Shown: in pieces, positions 3,614 through 48,373 of the stretch | Numbering within the stretch: position 1 is the stretch's first letter | How the letters are laid out: each line of letters starts with the position of its first letter | Origin: a virus | IMG/VR virus record: IMGVR_UViG_3300021976_000018 | Span: 1-55,086 of that record | Strand: one strand, 5' to 3' | Length of the DNA stretch: 55,086 nucleotides | Made by a program: the position numbers and the translations under genes | Notes under the pieces: generated by a model | Told to the model about the DNA's origin: nothing | Databases searched by the model: none | Seen by the model: the letters and a program-made list of their open reading frames with translations, nothing else

Positions 3614-4296
3614 GGGTCGTCCTCGGACTCGGGGTAGAGGTCTGTGCGCTCGTCTGTCTCTGCGTCCCAGACGCCGGGGCGAGTCGCCTGGCGTTCCTTG
3701 CGCGGTGGTCTGAGCCTGTCGGGCCAGGTACGAATCCGCTTACCGGCCTTGGCCAGAGCGGTCCACGGAACATGAGCGAAGAACGAGTTGCCGCTATAAC
3801 GGAGCCGGTCCTGCTCGAATAGACCGTTATCGGTAGCGAACGTCACCAGGTCGACCGTGTGGACCACGGCAACGCTGTTGAGAACCCCATCGGTCGTGTA
3901 GGCGTGGACATGTAGCGATGGACAGAACCAGCCTGGGTTGGCCAAGGCGTGTTGGAGCTTCTCCAACTCCGTTCTCGAGCCCTTCTGCCGGGTAACCCGG
4001 ATTGTGAACGTGTCCCATGGCCAGTGGCCATCGGGGCTGGGTCGCCATTGCACCCTTGCCCCGATGCCACGGACGCCCCGGCCGGCTGCTATGTGCAGGT
4101 AGTCGATGCTGCACCGGTAGTCGAGGTGGTTGGCGAGCCGACGGTCGTCTCGGCTGCACCGGTCGCATGGCGTGCCCTCCACCGAGATGATCAGATCCTT
4201 CGGGTCGCCGACGATCATCGGCCTGACGACCGGTAGGACTAGCTCCTCGAACTCCTGTCTCTGGCGCTCGAAGTCGGTGCGGGTGCGCTCATCCAC
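3601..4296 (-). CDS. Hypothetical protein, 231 residues
   Basis: GTG 4296 overlaps the end of the methyltransferase gene by 8 bases. The product has a CDRCSRDDR zinc-like site near residue 45, a His/Asp-rich mixed region (RCSIDYLHI, WPWDTFTIRVTRQKG) and a basic C-terminal third. The alternation of strands with charged motifs would suit a nuclease or DNA-binding protein, but no family is recognised and no catalytic motif can be named with confidence. Confidence 0.6.
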   Translation of the reverse strand: MDERTRTDFERQRQEFEELVLPVVRPMIVGDPKDLIISVEGTPCDRCSRDDRRLANHLDYRCSIDYLHIAAGRGVRGIGARVQWRPSPDGHWPWDTFTIRVTRQKGSRTELEKLQHALANPGWFCPSLHVHAYTTDGVLNSVAVVHTVDLVTFATDNGLFEQDRLRYSGNSFFAHVPWTALAKAGKRIRTWPDRLRPPRKERQATRPGVWDAETDERTDLYPESEDDPWHG

Positions 4297-5425
4297 GGCG
4301 CACTTCGATCCCTCGGGCCGCACACAGAGCGAGCCTGCCCTCATCTATGTCGGCACCCAGGGCCTCCATGCCAGCTCGGTAGCCGGCGTCGATGAACGTC
4401 CCGGTGCCGGCGAAGGGGTCGAGGAGGACGCCGCCGGATGCCCCGGCGTGCGTGATGAGCTTGTCGGCCAGGTCGTCCGGCTTCTGCCACGGGTCCAGAC
4501 GGCCATCGTGCCGTCCGTCTGGTGCTGAGATGTCGAGCACTGAGAACCGGTCGACGAGGCCGTCGAACGTCGGGGGCGGGGTATCGGGGCCAACGATGTG
4601 CAGGACGGCCTGCCAGTTCGGTGAGTAGCCGTGGCCGTCGGGGCCGATGGTGTTGCGCCACGTCCACACGAGGACGTTCTCGAAGTGCCAATCCTCGCCG
4701 CTGAGCACGTTGAGGTAGGCGCGGAGCTCGGGAGGGTAGGCACCGATGCACACGTAGGCGCGGCCGTCAGGCTTCAGTCGGCTGAGCGCTACTGGCAGCC
4801 ACCACGCAGCGAACGAGTCGATGTCATCCACGTCGGTCGAGTACGGCGGATCGGTGAGCAGCAGATCGGCTCCACCCTCCGGCTGGTCCTTCAGCCACTC
4901 GACGGCATCCAGGTACCAGACGACACCGGCAGCTGCGCGGCCGGCGAGGTACTGCTGGCGCTTGCGCTCGCCGTTGCGCCGCCGAACTTCGGAGCGAAGC
5001 GCCTGTACAGACCACGGCGACGGCCGGTCTTCATCGCCCGTTACGGCCAACTCCAGCAGCTCGTCCTGCTCGGGCGGCTCCAGCGCTGCCACTGCGTAGT
5101 GATGGCCGAACGAGAGATCCGTATGACGTCGTACGGTTTCAGCGAACTTGTCGGCCACCCAAGCGGCTTGCCTGCATGTCTCACCCGAATAGCCGGTCGG
5201 AGCGGCCTGCGATGAGGCCTCGCCGTAGGACCGCTCGCCGTAGCGCCACCAGTCCCCCAGCCACCACATGATGCTGCCCTCCATCGAGCGCAGCACTTCA
5301 CCCACAGCAGCCCAGTCCTCAAAGGGGATGCCCTCCGGCAAGTCGAGGCCCCGTGGGTTGGCGTACTTGAACAACCCTGCCGAAGGGGCCAGGACTTCAC
5401 CCGTCTCCGAGTTGACGAGGCTCAC
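4289..5425 (-). CDS. DNA methyltransferase (beta-class N4/N6) with N-terminal domain
   Basis: Counting from GTG 5425 (378 residues), residues 1-160 form a Trp-rich helical domain often seen ahead of phage methylases (SIMWWLGDWWRYGER, TGYSGETCRQAAWV). The catalytic domain has motif IV TDPPY at 191-195 and the SAM-binding motif DPFAGTG at about 336-342, an order typical of beta-class amino-methyltransferases. It should methylate A or C in DNA and protect phage DNA or regulate genes. A start at ATG 5440 is possible; GTG 5425 is preferred because it overlaps the stop of a 14-codon leader with a good ribosome site. Confidence 0.85.
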   Translation of the reverse strand: MSLVNSETGEVLAPSAGLFKYANPRGLDLPEGIPFEDWAAVGEVLRSMEGSIMWWLGDWWRYGERSYGEASSQAAPTGYSGETCRQAAWVADKFAETVRRHTDLSFGHHYAVAALEPPEQDELLELAVTGDEDRPSPWSVQALRSEVRRRNGERKRQQYLAGRAAAGVVWYLDAVEWLKDQPEGGADLLLTDPPYSTDVDDIDSFAAWWLPVALSRLKPDGRAYVCIGAYPPELRAYLNVLSGEDWHFENVLVWTWRNTIGPDGHGYSPNWQAVLHIVGPDTPPPTFDGLVDRFSVLDISAPDGRHDGRLDPWQKPDDLADKLITHAGASGGVLLDPFAGTGTFIDAGYRAGMEALGADIDEGRLALCAARGIEVRRG

Positions 5426-5466
5426 CCAGTCACCTCGCACATCAGCGAGGCCGTACCATCCAACAT
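5422..5466 (-). CDS. 14-codon leader peptide before the methyltransferase
   Basis: ATG 5466 follows a good Shine-Dalgarno sequence (AGAGGAGCTGAC) and encodes MLDGTASLMCEVTG, then TGA overlapping the methyltransferase GTG. The methyltransferase itself lacks a ribosome site except inside this peptide, so translation is probably coupled through it. The peptide shows no run of rare or repeated codons that would point to classical attenuation. Confidence 0.45.
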   Translation of the reverse strand: MLDGTASLMCEVTG

Positions 5467-6743: not shown

Positions 6744-7026
6744 GGGTGGCCTCCGTGTCGAGGTAGTCGAGGGCGAGCTGGCCGTGTGGGAGCAAGCGGC
6801 GTCCGGTGGTGGCCTCGTAGGCGACGGCACGCCAGTCGACGTAGAAGCGGTCGATGTCGCGGCCTTCGCCGTGGCTGGCGGAGAACGGGTGGGTGACGAG
6901 CTCGGGTGGGAACGGCACCCACACGTGGTCGTGCAGCGGGAGGCCGACGCAGTCGTAGCGGGTGCAGGGCGCCCAGTCGTCGCCTCGGATGCCTGTCGCT
7001 TTGTCGTCGGGGTCGTACAGGACCAT
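6736..7026 (-). CDS. Hypothetical protein, 96 residues
   Basis: ATG 7026 shares bases with the methyltransferase stop (TGATG); GTG 7029 is an alternative. The product is rich in aromatic residues and Asp (CTRYDCVGLPLHDHVWVPFPPEL, DRFYVDWRAVAYEAT). No family recognised. The tight coupling implies co-expression with the interrupted methyltransferase. Confidence 0.6.
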   Translation of the reverse strand: MVLYDPDDKATGIRGDDWAPCTRYDCVGLPLHDHVWVPFPPELVTHPFSASHGEGRDIDRFYVDWRAVAYEATTGRRLLPHGQLALDYLDTEATHG

Positions 7027-8498
7027 CACGCCGGGCTCCACAGGTCGAGCGGTGCGGCGGCGAGCCTGAGGGCGGCCTTCTCGGCCATCGCCTCGTCCGC
7101 TTCGATGCCGATGGCCTTGTAGCCGGCCTCGCGGGCAGCGACGAGCGTGGAGCAGGACCCAGCGAACGGGTCGAGGACCAGGCCTGGCCGTTCGCTGAGG
7201 GCTAGAGGGCCACCACAGTTCGGACACGACCCGAGACGCCGATCATGCCGTGGCAGTGCGGGCACTGGATCGGCTTCGGCGACGGCTTGGGGATGCGATC
7301 GTGCTCCCGTTTCGGTAAGACCTTCAGGTTCCCTGGCCGGTTGTCGTCCTTGATCTCGTTGAGGTGATGCACCACCTCGTCCGTCCGGAGCGGACGTCCC
7401 AGCACCTCGGCCATCACCAGTCGATGCTCGAAGACGTAGCCCGCCTTGGTCGCCATCGGGTGACCCGGCCGGTAGAGCATCACGTAGCCGGCTTGCGTTC
7501 GCAGCGATGGCTTCCGCTTGCCGCGGCCGATCGTCGGAATCGCGCAACGACGGGAGCAGAACCTGGTCGAGTTCGCCAGTGGTTGAAACGTCGCCCCGCA
7601 CTCCTCGCAGGACTTTGGCTTCAGACGCGCCGCTTGCGCTGCGCACTCCCGCGAGCATGTCCGCTGGGACGGTCGCCCCGTGTGGTTGCGGGCGTGGAAC
7701 TGGCGTCCACAGATCGGGCAGGTCGTCTCCGGCGTCGCTCGCTGGGACGCGCTCTTGCAAGCGTTGTTGCAGAACTTCCTGGGGCCCCGCTTGCCCAGTG
7801 CTGTCGGTAGCCCGCACCACTGGCACCCTCGGTCCTCGCTCACGTCCACAGTCTATGCACTCCAGGACCGACACCACAGGTGGGCAGGCGTAGCGGATGA
7901 GCGGGTCGAGCAGCGCTACCGGCTTTTCGGTGGGGGCGATGGCCCCGCGGCGCCACATGTTGGGGACCTCGAGCACCGAGGGTATGAGCCGGGTGCCGTC
8001 ATCGACCCAGGCGCCCTGGTCGCCGATCTTGCCCATGTGGCGGGCGTGGCCGGCGCCCTGCTTGATCGAGCGGTCGCGTTCCTTGATGCCGACGTGGGTC
8101 CGGGGGGTGTCGTGGTGGATGAGGTTCCAGGCGCCCCGGTACCAGTGCAGGACATGTTCATGCACCCGTCGGAAGCGGTCGGCGGCGAAGCCGGTGCCGT
8201 TCTGCTTGCGCCACACCACGTCCTGGGAGAGGTTCCAGTAGCGGTCGAACTCCGACCCGTGGCGGAGATACATGCGCATGCTGCCGAAGCACCACATGGA
8301 GCGGGTGACGTCCGCGACCAGTGGGAGCCAGCCGTCGGGCCAGACATCCCACAGCAGCGACGTCTCACCGTAAGGGGGGTCGGTGACGCAACAGTCGGGT
8401 TCGATACCGACCCCGGGCCGCCCGAGCTCGGGCAGCACCTCGCGCATGTCCCCCAGGTACAGGGTCACCTTGTCGTCGGTGTAGTACGGGACCGTCAC
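7026..8498 (-). CDS. DNA methyltransferase, interrupted in frame by an HNH gene
   Basis: GTG 8498 follows a Shine-Dalgarno sequence (AGGAGTCAACG). The N-terminal part has motif IV DPPY at residues 40-43 and reads as a normal methylase through TEKPVALLDPLIRYACPP (codons ending at 7878). The C-terminal part resumes at 7184 with GLVLDPFAGSCSTLVAAREAG, the SAM-binding motif. The 693 bases between add 231 codons of non-methylase sequence without a stop; they hold an HNH gene in another frame. Whether the protein works as a long fusion, as two pieces, or only after loss or splicing of the insert is unknown. Confidence 0.75.
   Translation of the reverse strand: MTVPYYTDDKVTLYLGDMREVLPELGRPGVGIEPDCCVTDPPYGETSLLWDVWPDGWLPLVADVTRSMWCFGSMRMYLRHGSEFDRYWNLSQDVVWRKQNGTGFAADRFRRVHEHVLHWYRGAWNLIHHDTPRTHVGIKERDRSIKQGAGHARHMGKIGDQGAWVDDGTRLIPSVLEVPNMWRRGAIAPTEKPVALLDPLIRYACPPVVSVLECIDCGRERGPRVPVVRATDSTGQAGPQEVLQQRLQERVPASDAGDDLPDLWTPVPRPQPHGATVPADMLAGVRSASGASEAKVLRGVRGDVSTTGELDQVLLPSLRDSDDRPRQAEAIAANASRLRDALPAGSPDGDQGGLRLRASTGDGRGAGTSAPDGRGGASPQRDQGRQPAREPEGLTETGARSHPQAVAEADPVPALPRHDRRLGSCPNCGGPLALSERPGLVLDPFAGSCSTLVAAREAGYKAIGIEADEAMAEKAALRLAAAPLDLWSPA
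7202..7849 (-). CDS. HNH homing-type endonuclease inside the methyltransferase gene
   Basis: GTG 7849 encodes 215 residues. Three zinc-knuckle-like Cys sets lie in residues 8-80 (CQWCG, CPICGRQF, CEECGATF with CSRRC), then the HNH core: EHRLVMAEVLGRPL, VVHHLNEIKDDNRPGNL about 133-165, and a final CPHCHG ribbon. This zinc-finger plus HNH layout is typical of free-standing phage homing nucleases. The gene fills 648 of the 693 inserted bases. Its exact match to the insertion marks it as a mobile passenger targeting the conserved SAM-motif codons of methylases. Confidence 0.9.
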   Translation of the reverse strand: MDVSEDRGCQWCGLPTALGKRGPRKFCNNACKSASQRATPETTCPICGRQFHARNHTGRPSQRTCSRECAAQAARLKPKSCEECGATFQPLANSTRFCSRRCAIPTIGRGKRKPSLRTQAGYVMLYRPGHPMATKAGYVFEHRLVMAEVLGRPLRTDEVVHHLNEIKDDNRPGNLKVLPKREHDRIPKPSPKPIQCPHCHGMIGVSGRVRTVVAL

Positions 8499-13371: not shown

Positions 13372-13646
13372 CAGGCCAGCTCCTTGCCTTCGAGGTCGTG
13401 TTCAACAACGAACGGGCCGGGTCCGCCGTCGGGGTGCTGGCAGATGTTGACGATGTGCCCGCACACCTCACATCCGACGACGCCGGCGATGACGTCCTTC
13501 CGGGCCACCCGGCCGAGCGAGCCCGGGCAGCGGGTATCGAGACGCTGCAGCCGGGTGGATGGGCGCGGTGGGCGGCCGGTCACGAACTCGATGGCGAGAG
13601 CGCGGACGGTCGGCCAGTGGCGGCGCACCACAGTCGAGGCGGTCAC
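13371..13646 (-). CDS. Zinc-binding hypothetical protein, 91 residues
   Basis: GTG 13646 overlaps the DpdA-like gene stop (GTGA). The C-terminal half has GCEVCGHIVNICQH, a probable zinc knuckle. The N-terminal half is basic. It directly follows the transglycosylase gene, so a link to DNA modification is possible but unproven. Confidence 0.6.
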   Translation of the reverse strand: MTASTVVRRHWPTVRALAIEFVTGRPPRPSTRLQRLDTRCPGSLGRVARKDVIAGVVGCEVCGHIVNICQHPDGGPGPFVVEHDLEGKELA

Positions 13647-14251
13647 GATGCACCTTCGAACAGGGTGGGTTCGTGGGCCCAGCGGAGCCAGCGCAGGAGT
13701 TGGGGGAGGTTGTGGTCCGGGCCGAAGGCGAGGAACGTGCCGTCGACGGAGTCGCAGCCGAGCGCAGCGGCGTAGCGGAGGCGGCGTAGCGAGTTGACGC
13801 GGCCCATGTGCACCCACAGTCCGCGGGCCTTGGCCTCAGCGACGAGAGCGCGTGCCTCAACCCCGAGCTTCCACGGGGTGTCGCCACCGATGAACACGGC
13901 CGAGCACGGGGGGAAGGAGGTGGCGCCGTTCTGGAGGACGTAGGCCGTGCGGTAGCCGCGGTTGCGGGCGGCGCCGTGCCAGCGTGCCCAGCGTTCGTTC
14001 GTGGCTTGGGCGTCGGCCACTACGTCGGGGACGACCACGAAGAGGCAGTCGGCGGCCAGGTGCTGATGGCGGTCGAGGGTGGCGAGCCAGCGTTCCGGGG
14101 TCCAGCGTGCGGCGAAGCAGCCGTTGTCGATCGCCCACCGGGTGCCGTCGACGACCCGGTTGCCGGCGTCGGGGGTAACCATCTGGCCGAGAAGTCCGGT
14201 GGCCATGGCGTCACGTACCTGCGGGCCGGAGGCTGTGGCGAGGTACAGCAC
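13643..14251 (-). CDS. dpdA: DpdA-like DNA 7-deazaguanine transglycosylase
   Basis: The 202-residue protein matches the phage DpdA branch of the tRNA-guanine transglycosylase superfamily: MLYLATASGP at the start, AIDNGCFA (about 40-47), VVPDVVAD (73-80), YVLQNGA (104-110), FIGGDTPWKLG (120-130), HMGRVNS (148-154) and CDSVDGT (166-172), the last two holding candidate catalytic Asp residues. Family members replace guanine in DNA with preQ0 or a relative, shielding phage DNA from restriction. GTG 14251 overlaps the transporter gene by 41 bases. No preQ0 synthesis genes are seen, so the base is probably imported. Confidence 0.85.
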   Translation of the reverse strand: MLYLATASGPQVRDAMATGLLGQMVTPDAGNRVVDGTRWAIDNGCFAARWTPERWLATLDRHQHLAADCLFVVVPDVVADAQATNERWARWHGAARNRGYRTAYVLQNGATSFPPCSAVFIGGDTPWKLGVEARALVAEAKARGLWVHMGRVNSLRRLRYAAALGCDSVDGTFLAFGPDHNLPQLLRWLRWAHEPTLFEGAS

Positions 14252-14753
14252 GACGTGCCCACCAGACGAGGGGCCAGGCGACGGCGACCATGACCACCTT
14301 GCCGACGACGTTGCCGGTCAGGTGGTCGAGGCTCCCGAAGGCCAGCGTGAGGAACAGGGCGGAATCGACGACCGCGCCGACCGTGTTGGACAGCGCAACG
14401 GCTGAAGGCCAGTGGCGGCGTCGGAGAGGCTCGTACACAGCAAGGTCGGCCAGTTCGCTGTCAGCGAACGCCAGGGCCGAGGCGACAGCGATCGGGGCGT
14501 GGCCGCCGGGGATGCGGTCGGCGTCCTCGATCACGTACGACAGCAGCGCCCCGGCGGCGATGCCGGCCAGCACCAGGCGTCGGCCACCCCGCTCATGCAG
14601 GGCGTCACGGAGACCGAACGCCAGCCCGGCGAAGTACACCCCAGCCGGGGCTTCCAGCCCGAAGCCGATGGGGACGATGCCGTAGCGGGCGAGCGCCCAG
14701 TTGGCGCCGGCCACCGTGGCGACAAACGCGGCGAACAGGATGAGGCGGGTCAC
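14211..14753 (-). CDS. yhhQ: YhhQ/VUT-family queuosine-precursor (preQ0) transporter
   Basis: The 180-residue, six-segment membrane protein has the hallmarks of the VUT/YhhQ family: APAGVYFAGLAFGLRDALHERGG (about 35-57), IAVASALAFADSELADLAVYEPL (88-110) and NTVGAVVDSALFLTLAFGS followed by GK (123-152). The family imports queuosine precursors such as preQ0 and preQ1. Position immediately before and overlapping dpdA implies that it feeds the DNA transglycosylase. Acts in the host membrane. Confidence 0.85.
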   Translation of the reverse strand: MTRLILFAAFVATVAGANWALARYGIVPIGFGLEAPAGVYFAGLAFGLRDALHERGGRRLVLAGIAAGALLSYVIEDADRIPGGHAPIAVASALAFADSELADLAVYEPLRRRHWPSAVALSNTVGAVVDSALFLTLAFGSLDHLTGNVVGKVVMVAVAWPLVWWARRAVPRHSLRPAGT

Positions 14754-15259
14754 GACGCACCGGCCCTACGGAGGAACCCGCGCTCACGGGCCCAGGCACC
14801 GTGACGGTGGATGTGGCGATGGCAGCCGGTGCCGCAGACATCGAGCGTGTTCCACGCCTCGTCGCTGGACCCGGGCCCGCGGGGGATGATGTGGTGCCGG
14901 TCGGTCGGCCGTCCCTTACACACACCGGGGATGGCGGCTTCGCAGACGTCGGCCAGCGGCTCGTCGGGTCGGGCGCGGCCGGGGGCGTTCCACCGCTTGT
15001 TCGTCGGGGACGTCGGCCGCATCCGTTTGCGTCCCTGGCCTTCCGGTGGGGGCCAGGGGGTCAGCTCGCTACCCACCGGGGTGACCGTGACGAGGCCGTC
15101 AGCGAACGACGGGCCGGTCGTGCCGTGGCCGGGGCCGCGCTGGTAGTAGCTCGCCCCGGTGGAGTCCTTCGCCCGCCAGCCACGGGACTTCAACCAGCGC
15201 AGCGAGACGATGCGGTTGGCTGAACCGACCGACATGCCAACCTCGAGAACGGCGGTCAC
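14750..15259 (-). CDS. HNH endonuclease
   Basis: GTG 15259 gives 169 residues. The C-terminal half has an HNH fold: CEAAIPGVCKG, then TDRHHIIPRGPGSSDEAWNTLDVC and GTGCHRHIHRHG, with two Cys pairs and the catalytic HH. The N-terminal 90 residues are basic and may bind DNA. It sits directly upstream of the transporter gene, overlapping it by four bases; it may be a homing passenger or a phage-encoded nuclease tolerant of the modified phage DNA. Confidence 0.85.
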   Translation of the reverse strand: MTAVLEVGMSVGSANRIVSLRWLKSRGWRAKDSTGASYYQRGPGHGTTGPSFADGLVTVTPVGSELTPWPPPEGQGRKRMRPTSPTNKRWNAPGRARPDEPLADVCEAAIPGVCKGRPTDRHHIIPRGPGSSDEAWNTLDVCGTGCHRHIHRHGAWARERGFLRRAGAS

Positions 15260-15504
15260 CACCCCACCCCCTTCGCCGCCAGCTGCTCGCCGTAGTCGCT
15301 TCGGCCGCCGAGGTGCGTGTACCGGTAGCGCTCACCGGCTGGCATCGGGTCGACCGGCAGGTTCAGCAGGAACCGGTAGAGGTCGATGGCGCAGCCGGGG
15401 CAGAAGTCGAGGCCGCGGCGCCGCTCCCACCGGTCGTCCGTCGAGTCCACGTAGCCGCAGCGGTCGCACGCGAACTCCCACGTCGGAATCTCGCGGGCAG
15501 TCAC
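15256..15504 (-). CDS. Zinc-ribbon protein, 82 residues
   Basis: GTG 15504 overlaps the upstream stop. A clear zinc ribbon, FACDRCGYVDSTDD then LDFCPGCAID, occupies residues 12-42, followed by a helical segment and a Gly-rich end. Function unknown. Confidence 0.65.
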   Translation of the reverse strand: MTAREIPTWEFACDRCGYVDSTDDRWERRRGLDFCPGCAIDLYRFLLNLPVDPMPAGERYRYTHLGGRSDYGEQLAAKGVGW

Positions 15505-32956: not shown

Positions 32957-33122
32957 CAACGTGGTGCCGCTACGAACCGACAGGTTCACGCTTGACGCAC
33001 CGCAATGGGAGGCGGCAGCCAAGGGCGCCAGCGACCACCTCCGAGTTGAGAAGTGCCACCCTCGCATCGGTTCGACCCGAGCACAGCTGCCTTTGGGGGC
33101 GGCGTGGGTACCCCGCAGCTCG

Positions 33123-33197
33123 TGGCAGCGATGGGATTTGAACCCACGACCTCAGGGTTATGAGCCCTGCGAGCTGACCGGACTGCTCCACGCTGCT
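33123..33197 (-). tRNA. tRNA-Met (CAT), initiator-like
   Basis: On the minus strand a complete 75-base cloverleaf is readable: acceptor AGCAGCG/CGCTGCC, D stem GAGC/GCTC, anticodon stem CAGGG/CCCTG with loop CTCATAA (anticodon CAT), and T arm GTGGG-TTCAAAT-CCCAT. It has initiator hallmarks: three G-C pairs below the anticodon (GGG/CCC), A11-U24 in the D stem and an unpaired first acceptor position. That mismatch is A1-C72 rather than the usual C1-A72. CCA is not encoded. Confidence 0.85.
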
Positions 33198-46655: not shown

Positions 46656-47750
46656 TCACCACTCGGTCACCTGGTGAGCGGCCTGGTACTGCTCGACCAC
46701 CGCTGCAGGGATCGGGCCGCTCGCCGGGACGTCGACGCCGGCGTCCTTCGCCCACGCCCGCACGTCCTTCGCCGGCGGCTTCGGGGCGGACGGCTCGAGG
46801 TCGGCTTCCACGACCGGGGCAGGTGGCTCCGGGTCGGGCTCCGCGGGGGCAGGCGGAGCGGCGTCGGCGGCGGTGAAGTCGAGGCGTACGGGGCGCCACA
46901 GCTGCGGGCGGCTCTTGGCGATCCAGCTGTCGGCGTGGGCGAGCGTGCGGCCACGGATGATCCGCACCCGGCGTCCGTCGACAGTGACGGAGCCGTTGTC
47001 TCGGGCGACCAGCACCTCTCCGCTCACGGTGACTACAGGGCCAGGGGGCATGGGGTCTCTCCTTCGAGGTGACGGCTGACGTGGGGTCCCGTAGCCGCGT
47101 AGGGAGTCGACGTGCAGCACGCGGCCGGACCCGTCGAAGTCGAGGGCCGACCGGTCGGCGCCGAGGAACCGGTGCGCTACACGGCCGAGGGTCTTGCCGT
47201 GACCGGGGAGCAGCGACGGGGCGTCGCGGTGGTCGACGAGCGACGGCCAGCTGTACCAGGTCGTCATGTGGCGGGCGGCGAGCCAGGCGCTGATGCGTCT
47301 GTCGTACTTGAGGCCGCCGTTGCGGTCGCCCCACGCCACCATCGCCGGGATCACCGGGACCGGCAGGACGACGCCGACACCCCAATGCAGACCACGGACA
47401 GCGAGCCAGGAGGCCGACTCACGGTCGGCGTCGGCGGCGAGGAGGGTGGTGTTGTTGCGCATCGGGGTCCAGCGCCCGAAGTACAGGGAGACGGCGGCTT
47501 GGTCGGAGACGTGGGTGAGCGCCTTCTCGACCCCGGCGATGAGGTCGGCGGGGATGACGGCGTCGTCTTGGAGAACGAGGTGGTGTGTGCAGGCGGGGTC
47601 GTGGGCAAGCCAGGCACGACGACCGGTGTCCCACTCGATGCCCTTCTCGTCCCAGACCAGAGCTGCCGGTAGGTCGAGGCGGGCCTGTAGGTCGTCGACC
47701 ATCTGCGCTCGGGCCGGATGCGCCATCACAGCAAACGAGACGGAGGTCAC
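46656..47750 (-). CDS. Glycosyltransferase fused to an Lsr2-like domain
   Basis: GTG 47750 opens 364 residues. Residues 1-230 look like a GT-A glycosyltransferase (SVSFAVMAHPARAQMVDDLQARL, HLVLQDDAVIP with a DD pair as candidate metal ligands). The frame continues without stop into a second part: a strand region (GEVLVARDNGSVTVDGRRV), a Pro/Ala linker, and an Lsr2 C-terminal-like DNA-binding motif (VRAWAKDAGVDVPASGPIPAAVVEQYQAAH). An internal ATG at 47051 has a strong ribosome site (GAAGGAGAG), so the last 131 residues may also be made alone. Confidence 0.7.
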   Translation of the reverse strand: MTSVSFAVMAHPARAQMVDDLQARLDLPAALVWDEKGIEWDTGRRAWLAHDPACTHHLVLQDDAVIPADLIAGVEKALTHVSDQAAVSLYFGRWTPMRNNTTLLAADADRESASWLAVRGLHWGVGVVLPVPVIPAMVAWGDRNGGLKYDRRISAWLAARHMTTWYSWPSLVDHRDAPSLLPGHGKTLGRVAHRFLGADRSALDFDGSGRVLHVDSLRGYGTPRQPSPRRRDPMPPGPVVTVSGEVLVARDNGSVTVDGRRVRIIRGRTLAHADSWIAKSRPQLWRPVRLDFTAADAAPPAPAEPDPEPPAPVVEADLEPSAPKPPAKDVRAWAKDAGVDVPASGPIPAAVVEQYQAAHQVTEW

Positions 47751-48373
47751 CGGTGGTCGGACCGCTGCCGGTTCAGGGCTTGGCGTTGGGTGTCGTTGAG
47801 CCACGACCCCCGGTAGTGGTGGCGGACGAACACCCACGGGCCCGGCTGGTCGTAGAGCCCGTCGAGACGCAGGTAGTGGTCGGGGTAGAACGCCCCCGGT
47901 GGGAGCACGAGCACGTCGTCGCGGCCCGGGAGGATGCCGGTGAACACGCCGGGCCCGGACTCCCACGGGCCGCGTCGGATCTCACGCACGGCCCGCTGCA
48001 TCATGGCTTCGACCGCCGGATGGCCGGGGTGGGCGCCGAAGCAGGCGTCGGGGATGGTGTGCTCGTCCTCCCACGCAGCGAACATCGGCACCGTCAGCAG
48101 CGGGTCGAACGCCCGGAACGGCTCCATGTCGGAATCGACGTAGACGCCGCCGCGCAGCGAGATGTCTTCGAGTCGGATCAGCCCGGCACGTTGCGCACCT
48201 GAACTGCACCGCGACCAGTACGGGGAGGTGAACGGGAACAGGCCAGGGTCGATCGGGTCGCGGTGGGTGACCAGTTCCCAGTCGGGGTGCAGGGCCCGGA
48301 ACCGCACCCACCAGCGTTCGACCTCAGGGGTGGTGGCAGCCGGCACGGTGCGCACCAGCCGTCTCGGGATCAT
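47747..48373 (-). CDS. Glycosyltransferase, DXD sugar-binding type
   Basis: ATG 48373 gives 208 residues. The signature VYVDSDMEPFRAFDPLL near residue 75 is the DxD nucleotide-sugar motif of the Gly_transf_sug group, preceded by a polar region typical of such enzymes (RLEDISLRGG). Likely transfers a sugar to virion protein. Overlaps the neighbouring glycosyltransferase genes at both ends. Confidence 0.85.
   Translation of the reverse strand: MIPRRLVRTVPAATTPEVERWWVRFRALHPDWELVTHRDPIDPGLFPFTSPYWSRCSSGAQRAGLIRLEDISLRGGVYVDSDMEPFRAFDPLLTVPMFAAWEDEHTIPDACFGAHPGHPAVEAMMQRAVREIRRGPWESGPGVFTGILPGRDDVLVLPPGAFYPDHYLRLDGLYDQPGPWVFVRHHYRGSWLNDTQRQALNRQRSDHR

Follow-up and report, generated by a model that had tools for sequence, protein, structure and literature searches.

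Two overlapping genes of an actinobacteriophage probably constitute a salvage-and-insert DNA modification module, in which one product would import a 7-deazaguanine and the other would exchange it into phage DNA. This had been the core interpretation of the first-pass annotation, and it is well supported by the comparative evidence presented here. The window, i.e. the whole stretch of DNA that was analyzed, is an entire IMG/VR virus record of 55,086 bases; it has no end repeats and may thus be a fragment, so that all gene absences reported for it hold for this record only. The features under study are as follows:

13643..14251, minus strand: short DpdA-like guanine transglycosylase (202 aa, GTG start; assigned by phrog_15826, structural model and hhalign)
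14211..14753, minus strand: QPTR/YhhQ-type queuosine-precursor transporter (180 aa, GTG start; PF02592)
14211..14251, minus strand: overlap of the two reading frames (41 bases, from the ORF coordinates)

Both open reading frames and the 41-base overlap described earlier were found, with the transporter frame first and the transglycosylase frame second on the minus strand of the window, and the overlap makes translational coupling of the two likely. The five motifs originally cited for the transglycosylase (AIDNGCFA, VVPDVVAD, GGDTPWKLG, HMGRVNS and CDSVDGT) are all contained in the 202-residue translation.

The 202-residue protein has no match in Pfam or NCBIfam and is matched by PHROG 15826 with an E-value of 1.7e-59, a family that carries no function. 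Its relatives are encoded on 157 viral stretches and are named DpdA-like tRNA-guanine transglycosylase in several actinobacteriophage records. Searches of Pfam, NCBIfam and, directly by sequence, the PDB with the protein or its family gave no link to TGT; this link appears by profile-profile and structure comparison of the short family. An AlphaFold2 model, for which an alignment of 56 relatives served as input, is a TIM barrel with a pLDDT of 95. In the comparison with the PDB, proposed beforehand as a check, TGTs are among the top matches (Z ~14.3 over 195 residues, rmsd ~3.4), but pyruvate kinase TIM barrels tie with them in Z-score, and for this reason the predicted fold by itself is ambiguous and not decisive. 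In BFVD, the function-bearing matches at E <= 0.001 are viral queuine tRNA-ribosyltransferases, and an hhalign comparison of the short family with 47 phage DpdA1 proteins yielded a probability of 92.7 and an E-value of 4.3e-7 over 133 columns. In turn, the DpdA1 profile has a match (E 0.001) to 7ui4, a DNA-guanine transglycosylase of solved structure. The 226-residue product of gene 054 of Rhizobium phage N3_2 matches both phrog_887, a queuine tRNA-ribosyltransferase family (E 7e-51), and phrog_15826 (E 7e-5), and by these matches joins the PHROG 887 and PHROG 15826 families.

Invariant residues in short DpdA are D42, D76, Q107, G123, H148 and D170, with the three aspartates and H148 conserved in 56/56 aligned members. 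In a joint alignment the pairs D42/D37, D76/D73, G122-G123/G124-G125, H148/H155, S168/S172 and D170/D174 of the short family and DpdA1, respectively, are invariant or nearly so on both sides. The catalytic aspartates, whose lack would have spoken against the assignment, are thus in place. By analogy with TGT, D42, D76 and D170 would be the general acid/base, the base-recognition residue and the nucleophile, the roles of Asp102, Asp156 and Asp280 in the Zymomonas enzyme. With a confident TIM-barrel model, the profile match and the shared invariant columns, membership of the protein in the DpdA/TGT superfamily is well supported. The designation as a DpdA-like transglycosylase therefore stands at the level of the superfamily, to which the BFVD matches also point, but not in the sense of a standard DpdA1; judged from its sequence, the protein represents a short, divergent subfamily without a canonical TGT domain. 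With phage DpdA1 proteins such as those of Enterobacteria phage 9g, CAjan and Rosebush it shares the TGT-superfamily fold, the Asp/Asp/GG/His/Asp columns and the DNA-modification context. However, DpdA1 proteins mostly comprise 250-320 residues, in contrast to ~200 in the short family, they have a histidine where the short family has a glutamine (Q107/H103), and they are paired with folE/queD/queE/queC, whereas the short family is paired with a transporter.

The unannotated protein CPT_0056 of Campylobacter phage CP220 (L229, 2676-3452) has a similar motif string (DNS, VPD, VVQG, HLLG, SLDTS) and a weak profile match (E 0.005), but differs from the window protein in its length of 258 residues and in belonging to PHROG 19058; it is a candidate guanine transglycosylase of that phage. 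The subfamilies DpdA3 and DpdA4 were reportedly defined in a paper of 2023, where phages of the CP220 kind are said to have been assigned to DpdA3.

The product of 14211-14753 exceeds the cut-off of Pfam Vut_1/PF02592 (38.2 bits, with a cut-off of 27.2), and its best NCBIfam names, preQ0/preQ1 transporter and queuosine precursor transporter, are in line with the importer that had been called at this position, although the protein remains under the equivalog cut-offs of TIGR00697 (26.6 of 50.95 bits) and PRK11212 (27.3 of 252 bits). A simple scan for hydropathy peaks found six hydrophobic segments. The window protein thus resembles QPTR/YhhQ (COG1738, PF02592) in its Pfam score and NCBIfam names, but differs in its length of 180 residues, in its scores below the equivalog cut-offs and in being encoded by a phage beside a transglycosylase. 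Substrates vary within the family, as the one from E. coli transports preQ0 as well as preQ1 and the one from Chlamydia queuine (PMC11130926). Because of this variation, the assignment to the QPTR/YhhQ family is secure, but the exact substrate is suggested by family and context only.

The strongest argument for a functional pairing of the transglycosylase with an importer, proposed initially from this one locus, comes from the comparison of many. We assembled 132 short-DpdA loci, of which 81 are viral (window included), 8 are from named phages and 43 from bacterial genomes. YhhQ lies within 700 bases in 84 of them, on the same strand in all cases, and the paired loci are distributed as 68/81 viral, 3/8 named-phage and 13/43 bacterial-genome loci. 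After clustering at 70% identity, 48/83 clusters of short DpdA have YhhQ, and searches of whole records found it in 32/42 records with the short gene. The frames overlap by 3-69 bases in most homologous loci. The transporter comes first in 68 paired loci and second in 16, and in a quick tree with many weak branches the reversed order is nested in a clade where the forward order occurs as well, so that the pair seems to have been retained through rearrangement. Cultured phages bearing the pair are StevieRay, ReqiPine5 and Aoka.

The window transporter found no relatives among viral contigs when used as a query, and for this reason other transporters, from Rhizobium, Sinorhizobium and Pseudanabaena phages, served as seeds of the reciprocal viral scan. 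They are four out of six phage-borne transporters not paired with the short family that were examined, each of which is at most three genes from a transglycosylase (neighbouring pairs phiLM21 gp25/gp26, PEAT2 gp18/gp19, Pam5 genes 30/28, N3_2 genes 054/055, X2_30, and Tbat1_6 gp35/gp34). The scan gave 80 viral YhhQ loci, which at 80% identity form ~38 groups. In 78 of the loci a gene of a transglycosylase family is encoded on the same strand no more than 700 bases away, a figure to be read with the origin of the seeds in phages with a transglycosylase neighbour in mind, as distant transporters lacking one were possibly missed. In the remaining two, 94 and 198 bases separate the transporter from the point where the locus starts, so that the neighbour is cut off. 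The partners are mostly of the N3_2 (PHROG 887) type, with eight from the short family and three of the phiLM21 type. As 78/80 loci adjoin transglycosylases of several kinds, the QPTR genes of phages appear to serve as dedicated partners of such enzymes.

A mere overlap of two unrelated passenger genes in a compact genome is highly improbable in the light of these counts. The closest relative of the short gene, L002 (80% identical), would fit it, since it keeps the gene without the transporter and with almost no further homology to the window around it; but pairing in 84/132 loci in both gene orders and in 78/80 from the transporter side refutes it as a general statement.

The earlier remark that folE, queD, queE and queC are not visible was borne out, as neither a QueC profile nor QueC, QueD, QueE and FolE queries from three phages found anything in the window, and the profiles for DpdA1 and canonical TGT had no match in the record either. 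At least one preQ0 synthesis gene is found in 4/132 short-DpdA loci as opposed to 73/83 loci of ordinary phage DpdA1, while YhhQ within 700 bases is confined to 6/83 of the latter; note that phages with preQ0 clusters supplied the seeds of the DpdA1 set, which biases this contrast towards synthesis genes, and that locus lengths differ between the sets. QueC is present in 1/42 whole records with the short gene.

Phages with DpdA only have been described by Hutinet et al. in 2019, who suggested uptake of exogenous precursor and found YhhQ in some phages, correlating with no phage group (PMC6884629). Their group 3 (Salmonella 7-11, Mycobacterium Orion) also has a transglycosylase without synthesis genes; here, in contrast, the transporter is the overlapping partner of a short subfamily, and it also partners two other transglycosylase families. 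The DpdA-only mycobacteriophage Orion had no modification when grown in Mycobacterium smegmatis, which lacks the preQ0 pathway (PMC6884629). In bacteria, some dpd islands carry YhhQ as seen here (~9% according to a 2025 preprint, PMC11888242), but these islands comprise dpdB, in many cases dpdC, and a restriction operon, whereas the window pair consists of two genes only. No report of the linkage of transporter and transglycosylase in phages was found in the literature searched, an incomplete search that leaves room for an earlier description.

Both protein superfamilies are classically linked to tRNA, and the pair could put an imported queuosine precursor into the wobble positions of host or phage tRNA to tune translation. 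Many actinobacterial hosts of the pair have no TGT of their own, so that deazaguanine in tRNA could be new there. We consider this reading unlikely. The 202-residue protein has no TGT Pfam domain (PF01702), nor does any of the 42 records in which the short gene is found; this speaks against an ordinary tRNA enzyme, and a protein of this size leaves no room for a C-terminal Zn/tRNA-binding domain. In addition, its profile relatives are DNA-acting phage DpdA proteins, DNA methyltransferases are recurrent neighbours, and full queuosine would require further enzymes, QueA and QueG/QueH. In L002 (8001-10123) the stop of short DpdA and the start of a C5 DNA methyltransferase overlap, Paenibacillus and Sphaerimonospora loci have similar neighbours, and a Dam-type methylase adjoins short DpdA in two loci. 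Within 3 kb, a C5 methyltransferase is found in 8/48 transporter-less and 4/84 other loci (nominal Fisher p of 0.03, relatedness ignored). Since methyltransferases adjoin several transporter-less loci, these neighbours support DNA as the favoured substrate.

In Sonali, SHIN8 and Vibrio R29Z the short gene has both a complete DpdA1 and genes for preQ0 beside it, which also ties it to 7-deazaguanine chemistry. The same coexistence could be taken to mean that the short protein has another 7-deazaguanine-related function, as a base-binding regulator, a hydrolase or an editor working with a second DpdA. This seems quite unlikely, as DpdA1 stands beside the short gene in 0/84 loci with the transporter, the catalytic aspartates and the histidine are invariant throughout the alignment, and the split short gene of SHIN8 may be merely a redundant copy. 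In this Escherichia phage (L087, 4869-5527) short DpdA is divided into two frames that overlap, next to preQ0 genes and a DpdA1 that is intact, through what may be either decay or a frameshift.

With respect to the hosts, ten isolate genomes with the pair were compared; a canonical TGT together with a strong QPTR of native type is present in Nocardia farcinica alone, and QueC exceeds the cut-off in four. Among twenty isolate genomes whose copy is without the transporter, TGT is present in 12/20, QueC in 5/20, and a QPTR of native type or close to it in 8/20 (Nocardia and one Paenibacillus), the Nocardia hosts having both a QPTR and a TGT of their own. In seven Streptosporangiaceae hosts without the transporter, QPTR, QueC and TGT are all under the cut-offs. 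That the phage brings a transporter where its host has none fits these data in part, but as taxonomy confounds the comparison they are suggestive only.

We thus favour the two-gene module, for which we infer the following course from the genes and their linkage. During infection or lysogeny the membrane protein would bring a free 7-deazaguanine base into the cell, most likely preQ0 or preQ1 and perhaps queuine, and the short transglycosylase, produced from the overlapping frame, would replace guanine in DNA with this base through a TGT-type reaction with an aspartate nucleophile and a covalent deoxyribose intermediate. Phage DNA modified in this way would resist restriction enzymes that read guanine, in the manner of CAjan, where a phage DpdA puts deazaguanine into DNA and blocks restriction (PMC6884629). 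Against the module we count the lack of YhhQ in the short-DpdA loci L002 and L003, the presence of the pair in only 13/43 bacterial-genome loci, the tie with pyruvate kinase, the transporter scores under the equivalog cut-offs, the seven Streptosporangiaceae without a source and the unmodified state of Orion.

The same pairing recurs in many unrelated phages, which points to a common strategy of masking phage DNA with a base obtained by salvage. If this is true, a phage genome would be protected by a base made by neither the phage nor its host, and its DNA chemistry, possibly including its sensitivity to restriction, would hinge on the microbes around it and on the growth medium. Host range may then also depend on preQ0 supply, as the first-pass annotation proposed. 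Cultured phages with the pair open a way to test whether DpdA phages that have no synthesis genes carry any modification. A wider reading, which we offer tentatively and would sooner doubt than affirm, is that phage QPTRs are near-obligate partners of transglycosylases from at least three families, that modification is conditional on a deazaguanine that other microbes release as a nutrient, and that the base may be one unseen in DNA, e.g. queuine.

The large terminase of the window shares 72% identity with its counterpart in Tsukamurella phage TPA4, and we assign the phage to the actinobacteriophages. Portal, tape-measure and tail genes are encoded along with an integrase that has a DNA-invertase-like part, so that the phage is probably temperate. 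Upstream of the pair, an HNH gene (14750-15262) overlaps the start of the transporter by 4 bases, so that the HNH, transporter and transglycosylase genes may share one transcript. The suggestion that this gene and the zinc-knuckle (zinc-ribbon) gene nearby belong to the same system had to be abandoned, as the other short-DpdA loci yielded no relative of either. Control of the pair by a preQ1 riboswitch was likewise rejected, since Rfam gave no such match in the window or in 20 related loci.

Several further genes of the window were noted. Two frames on the minus strand, 4289-5440 and 7026-8498, match the phage DNA methyltransferase families phrog_67/498, and for this reason the phage may combine several DNA modifications. 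The frame at 46656-47966 (minus strand), near the structural genes, encodes 436 residues with a glucosyltransferase-like N-terminal part (phrog_854) and an Lsr2-like C-terminal part, an unusual fusion if real. The sole tRNA gene, at 33122-33197 on the minus strand, is one for methionine with the anticodon CAT.
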